Both the position numbers and the translations under genes were made by a program. The notes under the pieces are model-generated. The model did no database searches and was not told where the DNA came from. It saw nothing but the letters and a program-made list of their open reading frames with translations. Positions 3,241 through 59,624 of a stretch of 62,718 bases of DNA are shown here, piece by piece. The stretch is from the NCBI RefSeq assembly GCF_014762765.1, contig NZ_JABURH010000070.1, positions 1 through 62,718 of the forward strand, written 5' to 3'. Numbering within the stretch: the stretch's first letter is position 1; each line of letters opens with the position of its first letter. The DNA is from Alcanivorax sp. Its GTDB lineage: Bacteria; Pseudomonadota; Gammaproteobacteria; Pseudomonadales; Alcanivoracaceae.

Positions 3241-3320
3241 TTGGGGCCGGACGTCGGAAGTCTGACGCCTGACGCTCTTGAACTTGTCGTCGGACGTCCG
3301 ACCTCAGACGTCCGACTTGT
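3241..3320. repeat. Iterated-end inverted repeat (GACGTCNGA units), ribH/ribBA gap
   Basis: GGCCGGACGTCGGAAGTCTGACGCCTGACG ... GTCGGACGTCCGACCTCAGACGTCCGACTTGTC, imperfect inverted repeats. Confidence 0.65.
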
Positions 3321-9404: not shown

Positions 9405-9847
9405 CAATTGAAAATTGATAATTAATAATTGATAACGAAAACCCGCTATCTCCGACTCTTGGTGGTTTTGATAATCGAGGTAAGCAGTTTCAATAACTCA
9501 TCAACATCCTTGAGCACTGAACCTCCCGCATGTCTCTCGAAATAACCTGATTCAGTGAGCAAATCAAGCCAGTACTCGGTTTCACTGGCCTCCTTGAGCG
9601 CGATGGACAGCTTATGAATAAAGTCTGCCCGGCTCTCGGCCTGCTCAGCTTCCCGTACTAATGCACCTATAGCTGTTCCGCTGCGCAAAAGTTGCTTGCT
9701 TAGCACATATTCCCGCTTTTGCTCTTGCAAGTACTGACACACTTTCACCACCCGCAAAGCAAAAGCGCGGGATTTCTCCCGCGCCACACTACCTTCAGCC
9801 ATCCGTGGCCTCCAGTTATCAATTATCCATTCTCAATTATCAATTAC
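9405..9847. mobile_element. Candidate mobile element: iterated TTGATAATTGATA inverted ends enclosing a four-helix-bundle gene
   Basis: Left CAATTGAAAATTGATAATTAATAATTGATAACG (9405-9437); right AGTTATCAATTATCCATTCTCAATTATCAATTAC (9814-9847) inverted; cargo ORF 9446..9802. Confidence 0.6.
9446..9802 (-). CDS. S23/IVP-type four-helix-bundle protein
   Basis: [78 protein letters not shown], matches the 23S rRNA intervening-sequence protein family pattern. Confidence 0.9.
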
Positions 9848-11100
9848 CGCTCATACACCGGCAACCGTGCACAAATTTCCTTCACCTTGCCCTTCACGGT
9901 CTCGATCACGGACTCATCGCCCATGTTATCGAGAATGTCGCAAATCCAGCCGGCCAGCTGTTTGGCGTCGTCTTCATTGAAGCCGCGACGGGTGATGGAC
10001 GGGGAGCCGATGCGCAGGCCGGAGGTGACGAACGGGGAACGCGGATCGTTAGGGACAGCGTTCTTGTTCACGGTGATGTTGGCGCGGCCCAGGGCTGCGT
10101 CAGCATCTTTGCCGGTGATGTCCTGCTTGATCAGGCTGAGCAGGAACAGGTGGTTCTCGGTTCCGTTGGAAACCACATCAAAGCCACGCTCGATGAACAC
10201 ACTGGCCATGGCCTGGGCGTTCTTCACTACCTGCTGCTGGTAGCCCTTGAAATCAGCCTGCATGGCTTCCTTGAAGCAGATCGCCTTGGCGGCAATCACG
10301 TGCTCCAGCGGACCACCCTGACCACCAGGGAACACTGCAGAGTTGATCTTCTTCTGAATTTCTTCGTTGGCCTTGCCCATGATCAGGCCGCCACGGGGAC
10401 CACCCAGGGTCTTGTGGGTGGTGGTGGTGGTGATGTCAGCGATGCCCACCGGGCTCGGGTACACGCCGGCAGCAACCAGACCGGCCACGTGGGCCATGTC
10501 CACCAGCAGGATGGCGCCCACTTCGTCGGCGATATCCCGGAAACGCTGCCAGTCCACGACCTGAGAGTAGGCGGAGAAGCCGGCCACGATCATCTTCGGC
10601 TTGTGCTCACGGGCCAGAGCTTCCACCTGGTCGTAGTCGATCAGACCAGTGTCGTTATCCAGGCCATACTGCACCGCGTTGTAGGTCTTGCCGGAGAAGT
10701 TCGGCTTGGCACCGTGGGTCAGGTGGCCACCGGCGTCCAGGCTCATGCCCAGTACGGTGTCGCCCGGCTGCAGCATGGCCATGTAGACCGCGCCGTTGGC
10801 CTGGGAACCGGAATGCGGCTGCACGTTGGCCCAATCGGCACCAAACAGTTCGCAGGCCCGGTCGATGGCCAACTGCTCGACTACGTCCACATTCTCGCAA
10901 CCGCCGTAATAGCGCTTGCCCGGGTAGCCTTCCGCGTATTTGTTGGTCAGCACGGACCCCTGGGCTTCCATGACCCGTGGAGACGCGTAGTTTTCAGAGG
11001 CAATCAGCTCGATATGCTCTTCCTGGCGAACTTCCTCGGCCTCGATGGCCGCCTGGATTTCCGGGTCGAACTCGGCGATGGACATGGATTTCGGGAACAT
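9844..11100 (-). CDS. glyA: Serine hydroxymethyltransferase
   Basis: [40 protein letters not shown] ... [16 protein letters not shown]. Confidence 0.97.
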
Positions 11101-27690: not shown

Positions 27691-27847
27691 CAATTGATAG
27701 TTGAGAATGGATAATTGATAACGTCGCGAGAAGAGCTCTCACGACCTAAACCTATGAGGCCGCGCCCAAAGCATGGGCGCGGCCTCATAAATTTCAGAAA
27801 AGATAACCCCGCATCGCGAGTTATCAATTATCCATTCTCAATTAACT
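27691..27847. repeat. Gene-less TTGATAATTGATA-type iterated-end element with internal hairpin
   Basis: Left CAATTGATAGTTGAGAATGGATAATTGATAACGTCGCGAG; right TCGCGAGTTATCAATTATCCATTCTCAATTAACT; internal perfect 16-bp stem 27753-27789. Confidence 0.75.
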
Positions 27848-31893: not shown

Positions 31894-31915
31894 GGGGCAA
31901 CCAACATAAGAGGAG

Positions 31916-32065
31916 AAAGTTGAAAGTTAAAAGTCCCAACGCAATCGGGGACGCAGAGCTCCATTCTATGCTTCTCTCTGTGCCAACGTCCTGCACACGG
32001 CCAGCAACCCTGAAATTGTGACCGGATTGGCTCGCGTTTCAACTTTGAACTTTCAACTTGTAACT
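31916..32065. repeat. Iterated-end inverted repeat (TTGAAAGT units), dnaB upstream region
   Basis: Left AAAGTTGAAAGTTAAAAGTCCCAACGC; right GCGTTTCAACTTTGAACTTTCAACTTGTAACT is its imperfect reverse complement. Confidence 0.7.
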
Positions 32066-35186: not shown

Positions 35187-35352
35187 GGCAGTTGATAATT
35201 GATAGTTGATAATTGACAACGGCGCGGGGCAGCGCCATCGATTCTTCAACGTAAGAGGCCGCGCCCAGACAATGAGCGCGGCCTCTTACGTTGAAGAATC
35301 AGATCAGCCCAGAGCGCGAGCTATCAATTATCAACTATCAACTGTCAATTGC
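35187..35352. repeat. Gene-less TTGATAATTGATA-type iterated-end element with long internal hairpin
   Basis: Left GGCAGTTGATAATTGATAGTTGATAATTGACAAC; right CTATCAATTATCAACTATCAACTGTCAATTGC; internal perfect 25-bp stem 35240-35264/35276-35300. Confidence 0.78.
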
Positions 35353-59529: not shown

Positions 59530-59624
59530 GGCAATGGATAATTGATAGTTGATAATTGATAATGGGGTTCGCTAACGGGCAGAGTCTCTCGTTATCCATT
59601 TTCAATTATCCATTATCAATTGCC
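59530..59624. repeat. Short TTGATAATTGATA-type iterated-end element
   Basis: Left GGCAATGGATAATTGATAGTTGATAATTGATAATGG; right GTTATCCATTTTCAATTATCCATTATCAATTGCC. Confidence 0.75.

Follow-up and report, generated by a model that had tools for sequence, protein, structure and literature searches.

What is a gene of the S23 family doing between nrdR and glyA, outside any 23S rRNA gene and enclosed by iterated inverted repeats? The question is posed by a stretch of Alcanivorax sp. DNA (contig NZ_JABURH010000070.1; 62,718 nucleotides, hereafter the window), in which an earlier note had seen an S23-type open reading frame (ORF) and proposed that the ORF and its ends are a discrete transposable or retro-mobile unit able to sit outside rRNA. 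Our analysis drew on 140 S23 loci in total (30 from the genus, 30 from across the Gammaproteobacteria and 80 from across GTDB) and on closely related plasmids. The results suggest that the S23 gene and its two inverted arrays probably constitute a small mobile unit, in which S23 would be a trans-acting factor that recognizes the arrays, in the manner of REPIN/RAYT systems. The unit of S23 and heptamers, and the association between them, are well supported.

The S23 gene of the window and its inverted ends

The locus consists of a gene and two arrays of seven-base repeats:

9406..9435, plus strand: left heptamer array, TTGATAA-type, four units; 3' of the S23 gene, near the nrdR start; lag-7 self-match score 14
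9446..9802, minus strand: S23/IVP four-helix-bundle gene, 118 amino acids; PF05635 E 4.3e-25, TIGR02436 E 3.1e-29, PDB 2RLD E 3.7e-36
9816..9846, minus strand: right heptamer array, inverted; 5' of the S23 gene, holding the glyA stop codon; lag-7 score 12

The S23 ORF exceeds the curated cut-offs of both family models (89.6 bits versus 33.8 for PF05635 and 101 versus 24 for TIGR02436). The left end (9406-9435) reads AATTGAAAATTGATAATTAATAATTGATAA and the right end (9816-9846) reads TTATCAATTATCCATTCTCAATTATCAATTA, its inverse; both are strict tandem heptamers, (TTGATAA)4, inverted about the gene. The enclosure of an S23-type ORF by iterated inverted ends is therefore real, and the earlier observation that the right end supplies the TAA stop of glyA (9844-11100, minus strand) was borne out. 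The left array terminates directly ahead of the nrdR start, and glyA, the S23 ORF and nrdR all lie on the minus strand. With up to two mismatches, TTGATAATTGATAA is matched 22 times in the window, against 0.05 matches expected from shuffles, so that chance does not account for the repeats. Between the ends there is no ORF besides S23, and no DDE, serine, tyrosine or HUH transposase is encoded there; a PADLOC search for a defence association of S23 gave no match.

Among 17 genomes of the genus, 16 carry one to four S23 genes each and one (G001) carries none. All 30 S23 loci fetched from the genus have iterated inverted ends, as judged by eye, with a heptamer that varies by locus: TTGATAA, TTGACAG, TTAACAG, GTAGCTT, GCTGTGA, GTCGGAC, TTGAAAG, AACTCGT and GCGTGTT. 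Base-by-base alignment shows that the order nrdR-S23-glyA is kept in seven genomes, where the heptamer is TTGATAA in G000, G002, G005 and G011, TTGACAG in G003 and G015, and TTAACAG in G004. An nrdR or glyA flank is also seen at L028-L030, and further genus members, compared by the sequence of their S23 ends, have related TTAATAG or TTGACAG heptamers. In G001, the nrdR-glyA gap has neither S23 nor arrays. The conserved gene order, with heptamers that differ between species, marks the window copy as an old, vertically inherited resident whose heptamers changed between species. The comparison of this gap in relatives, which the earlier note had recommended, thus reveals vertical conservation within the genus, with only the S23-less G001 being without gene and arrays. 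The proposal of a discrete mobile unit outside rRNA is not supported for the window copy as a recent insertion; for the family it is supported by filled and empty plasmid sites, by the enrichment of the ends and by arrays on viral contigs.

Period-seven ends and their correspondence to the protein

The ends were sought as the best self-match lag within 250 bp of S23. At the 60 loci of the genus and the Gammaproteobacteria, for which the controls were stretches 0.6-1.1 kb away, the best lag was 7 or 14 in 76 of 120 flanks versus 8 of 232 controls. The 80 GTDB loci, retrieved with the closer S23 alignment rather than the most diverse one, span Proteobacteria, Verrucomicrobia, Bacteroidota, Planctomycetes, Acidobacteria, Firmicutes and others; here lag 7 was found in 81 of 160 flanks versus 12 of 285 controls (Fisher p 8e-31), the mean lag-7 score was 16.4 versus about 4 at every other lag, and 54 loci had at least one period-7 array. 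At the remaining 26 the arrays were weaker, of period 8 or undetectable. Period 8 was seen at nine flanks, including flanks of L227 and of the Bacteroidota loci L252, L253, L254, L260 and L267, and the choice between seven and eight may depend on the S23 subfamily. Heptamers also flank S23 copies on cyanobacterial plasmids and are arrayed at most of 20 viral-contig S23 loci checked; S23 had no match in the phage GenBank collection. No 23S rRNA landmark lies within 2.5 kb of any of the 80 GTDB loci. The enrichment of iterated inverted ends at other S23 ORFs, for which the earlier note had proposed a search, is strong and bacteria-wide. Its TTGATAA-like spelling is no general rule: the heptamer varies by locus, and the common feature is the period of seven.

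An expectation-maximization alignment of the arrays gave a common polarized motif, N-A-G-T (A 0.76, G 0.93), which is read from the coding strand in upstream arrays and as the reverse complement in downstream ones, with an information content of 3.24 and 3.56 bits (upstream and downstream) versus control maxima of 2.60 and 2.77. Heptamer and protein vary together: heptamer similarity is about 0.47 at S23 identities of 20-40% and reaches about 0.82 where identity exceeds 80% (Mantel p<=0.0005, whether or not the window's genus is included). The S23 of L106, which is 67% identical, comes from a different family and occupies a non-nrdR site, has TTGATAA-type ends.

Filled sites, empty sites and elements without a gene

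Filled and empty sites were found on nine related Nostoc plasmids, compared over one operon with flanks about 90-99% identical. The gap between genes A and B of this operon holds S23 with TCAGGAG arrays in three plasmids (L297, L324 and L320), is 3 bp long in five others and contains an unrelated short gene in L322. The gap from gene B to gene C is occupied in L291 by a different S23, which has GGGAAAA arrays, and the other eight plasmids have no insert. In Calothrix, S23 with AGGGTGT arrays separates an integrase gene from its neighbour, and three relatives have no insert there. At these three filled sites S23 is the sole ORF between the ends, and the empty sites are without array. The insertions are at stop/start junctions, and no regular target duplication is apparent: among the three S23 junctions examined, one had 3 bp (ATG) duplicated, one had about 2 bp lost and one about 11 bp lost. 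The A-B unit of L320 has itself been struck, its S23 ORF being split by a gene-less element of about 190 bp with related heptamers. With presence and absence at otherwise similar sites, these units behave as mobile elements in the general sense.

Two further cyanobacterial loci merit description. In the Nostoc gap between genes Z and A, L319 and L324 have common array ends and entirely different interiors, as if the interiors had been exchanged between arrays. In Anabaena sp. 90 (L293, 2617-3392), cas6 and cas4 of a type I-D CRISPR operon are separated by an S23 gene whose GGTGACA arrays are long; this site was rejected as an empty-site pair because a 99%-identical relative carries an unrelated insert there.

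Arrays also occur without an S23 gene. The window contains three extra inverted pairs with the same heptamers as the S23 ends and no ORF inside, together with arrays of a second and a third heptamer family (no strand assigned):

3248..3275: single array of the third heptamer family (ACGTC-type), a heptamer borne by S23 loci L002-L005
27692..27845: ORF-less element, inverted arrays round a terminator-like hairpin; same site in G003, G004 and G015
31915..32059: inverted pair of the second heptamer family (AAAGTTG), a heptamer borne by genus S23 loci L012 and L020
35190..35349: ORF-less element of the same design as that at 27692; same site in G003, G004 and G015
59533..59622: short ORF-less element, inverted arrays without central hairpin

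At the 27692 and 35190 sites in G003, G004 and G015 the central hairpin is conserved and the heptamer spelling is often different; the gap is short and free of any element at both sites in G002, and at 35190 in G005 and G011. For G000, the genome of the window, genome-wide counts derive from pattern searches and from stretches that were sampled. With up to two mismatches, the 16-mer AATTGATAATTGATAA has 228 matches there, these being overlapping hits in which units are counted separately, and not a count of elements. From the fetched matches, 21 paired elements were rebuilt, the S23 unit included. Most are 148-161 bp long, in the order array, CGCG-containing spacer, terminator-like hairpin (AAGAGGCCGCGCCC...GGGCGCGGCCTCTT), spacer and inverted array; a few, of 79-115 bp, have no hairpin, and 36 of the 42 arrays have four heptamer units. 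The repeats are thereby dispersed as inverted pairs in intergenic DNA, as REPINs are. A mirrored order of units at the two ends, as would be expected from templating of one by the other, was not significant at 48 S23 loci (p 0.26) and not visible in the 21 G000 elements. The ends consequently look like recognized arrays and not exact inverted copies, which argues against one end having been copied from the other.

Inverted heptamer arrays were also seen flanking host genes (ribBA-like, purA-like and riboflavin-synthase-like) at L061 5164-6451, L073 13026-14314, L160 218-1660 and L070 4564-5291, perhaps through separate insertions on each side.

Proposed working, alternatives and known systems

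An AlphaFold2 model of one family member (L089; pLDDT 95.8) best matches 2GSC and 2RLD, and then Avd (4DWL), with a TM score of 0.74-0.78 normalized by query length. According to the title of a reference cited in PMC10053308, 2GSC is assembled from five four-helix bundles. The number of heptamers per array, about four, and their fixed core suggest a ring in which each S23 subunit would bind one heptamer. The TRAP protein is an analogue for ring-type repeat binding of this kind. The data show the structure, period and polarity of the units, the correlation of protein with heptamer, the dispersed copies, and the filled and empty sites; we infer direct binding of the arrays by S23, a driving role for S23 in movement, and a chemistry of insertion along the following lines. 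A pentamer of four-helix bundles, as in the solved relative and with the Avd fold, would bind an array of about four heptamers, each bound heptamer having NAG as its fixed core and otherwise differing with the protein. S23 would draw the inverted arrays to each other, and enzymes of host replication or repair might help to copy the bracketed segment into short intergenic junctions, leaving no regular target duplication. A segment that has lost the gene but still has its arrays could be mobilized in trans, yielding the dispersed elements of about 150 bp and about 85 bp, while the window copy would have been retained at nrdR-glyA as an old resident.

The distribution of dispersed copies bears on this proposal. 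Within the genus, dispersed copies of a heptamer are more numerous in genomes that have this heptamer at their S23 ends (mean normalized rank 0.748, permutation p 0.0001, in a test that is not fully independent because the genomes are related). The counts cover five heptamers out of about a dozen, with a mismatch limit of two for the first and one for the rest; the type of each end was judged by eye, TTAATAG was taken together with TTAACAG, and for the 16-mer of AAAGTTG the control is uninformative, as its reversal is itself a heptamer of like make-up. The S23-less G001 has 0-8 matches of each of the five heptamers. Besides this limited independence of the test, several points weigh against a mobile unit served by S23. 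G003 and G005 fit the relation poorly, and the many arrays of G003 (194 matches) are only loosely like its own S23 ends; the S23-positive G135, G248 and G124 hold 0-1 dispersed arrays per 200 kb; the insertion junctions follow no fixed rule; S23 has no recognizable nuclease, recombinase or polymerase domain, and the work could be done by another enzyme, S23 being a passenger or regulator.

As a regulator, S23 would bind heptamers to control translation or RNA stability, the arrays being selected RNA operators near start codons and 3' ends, and movement being rare and incidental. The array edge does lie close to the neighbouring gene (median 8 bp, GTDB-wide), where the two neighbours are co-directional S23 shares their orientation in 45 of 49 cases (GTDB-wide; p 8e-10), some heptamers have an AGGAG-like purine core, and it has been proposed that an unidentified factor binds TAACTGA heptamers and so controls translation (MacGregor 2015, PMC4679880). 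We nevertheless consider this explanation unlikely, since gene-less elements also occur at 3' gene ends round terminator-like hairpins, and since the presence or absence of whole units between close plasmids, and the breaking of an S23 gene by a related element, are the behaviour of mobile elements. The strong sense orientation and intra-operon position would also fit an RNA route, in which RNA of the unit enters transcripts at intercistronic junctions and a reverse transcriptase turns it back into DNA, with S23 acting as Avd does; the Avd fold, the apparent absence of regular target duplication and the occurrence of S23 ORFs in rRNA intervening sequences (PMC4990558) point the same way. Selection for expression can, however, also give sense orientation, and RVT_1 is absent from 11 of the 17 genus genomes, including G000 and complete ones rich in elements, whereas G001, S23-less and nearly repeat-less, does have it. 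Such a route is distinctly improbable; a reverse transcriptase in trans was rejected on the absence of RVT_1 from most genus genomes, and the retro-mobile nature suggested in the earlier note is left without support.

Y1_Tnp occurs in 16 of the 17 genus genomes, the same 16 that have S23, and G001 is without both RAYT and S23, a distribution that would suit a Y1 (RAYT/IS200-like) transposase elsewhere moving the heptamer elements, with S23 as passenger. Heptamer arrays, however, bracket none of 20 sampled RAYT loci of the genus, many of which bear GTAGGAGC-type repetitive extragenic palindromic (REP) hairpins or inverted pairs (for example L332, L335, L338 and L340), whereas S23 is heptamer-bracketed across bacteria. 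RAYT was rejected as the mover on this ground and looks like a parallel system, which makes a Y1 mover very improbable indeed. That the arrays are ordinary slippage-prone repeats where S23 genes chanced to insert is scarcely credible: single and very long arrays occur, but the empty sites have none, and the two ends share one heptamer, inverted and of fixed polarity.

A mobile unit whose arrays are recognized by S23 resembles REPIN/RAYT systems (Bertels and Rainey 2011, PMC3116915) in its repeat-flanked gene, in the dispersal of the same repeats as gene-less inverted intergenic pairs, and in the correspondence of gene and repeat types. It differs in encoding a four-helix bundle instead of a Y1 (HUH) transposase and in having tandem heptamers for ends instead of palindromic REP hairpins, and the two systems coexist separately in the window's genus. 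With 23S rRNA intervening sequences the units share a protein family inside inverted ends, but they are free-standing between protein genes; the Coxiella intervening sequence has a 28-bp terminal stem, and mobility of intervening sequences with an S23 ORF was proposed in 1990-1993 (PMC4990558). Unlike diversity-generating retroelements, whose Avd shares the S23 fold, they require no reverse transcriptase in the genome (RVT_1 is absent from G000 and ten other genus genomes) and have inverted heptamer arrays round the S23 gene. Unlike an insertion sequence or miniature inverted-repeat transposable element, the units of the window and of the three filled sites have only the S23 ORF between their ends and no encoded DDE, serine, tyrosine or HUH transposase.

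The ends belong to the same class of 7-base tandem repeats as the dispersed heptamers GGGAATC of Xanthomonas and GGGGA(C/T)T of Nostoc (PMC4692102) and TAACTGA of Beggiatoaceae (PMC4679880). X. campestris, with 70 convergent inverted heptamer pairs (PMC4692102), is the source organism of the S23 structure 2GSC. Unlike the S23 units, these published repeats are tied to no protein or mechanism; the main text of PMC4692102 mentions neither S23 nor XCC0516 (the protein of 2GSC), and that of PMC4679880 does not mention S23. Among open-licence PMC papers, to which our claim of novelty is limited, no link of free-standing S23 genes to heptamer arrays was found.

If true, the proposal would join three puzzles: what the S23 'four helix bundle protein' does, where 23S rRNA intervening sequences that hold an S23 ORF come from, and why the intergenic DNA of bacteria has an excess of 7-base tandem repeats. 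It would also establish a class of mobile element without recognizable transposase or reverse transcriptase, and with a readable protein-to-heptamer code. We hold it an even chance that the class is bacteria-wide, that its only protein is a pentameric ring of the S23/Avd fold without known catalytic domain, which reads tandem heptamers (octamers in some lineages) and spreads itself and gene-less derivatives with host enzymes, and that the heptamer repeats known without explanation from Xanthomonas, cyanobacteria and other bacteria stem from it. The S23 units point to an undescribed small mobile element and, with it, to a possible source of long-unexplained 7-base repeats.
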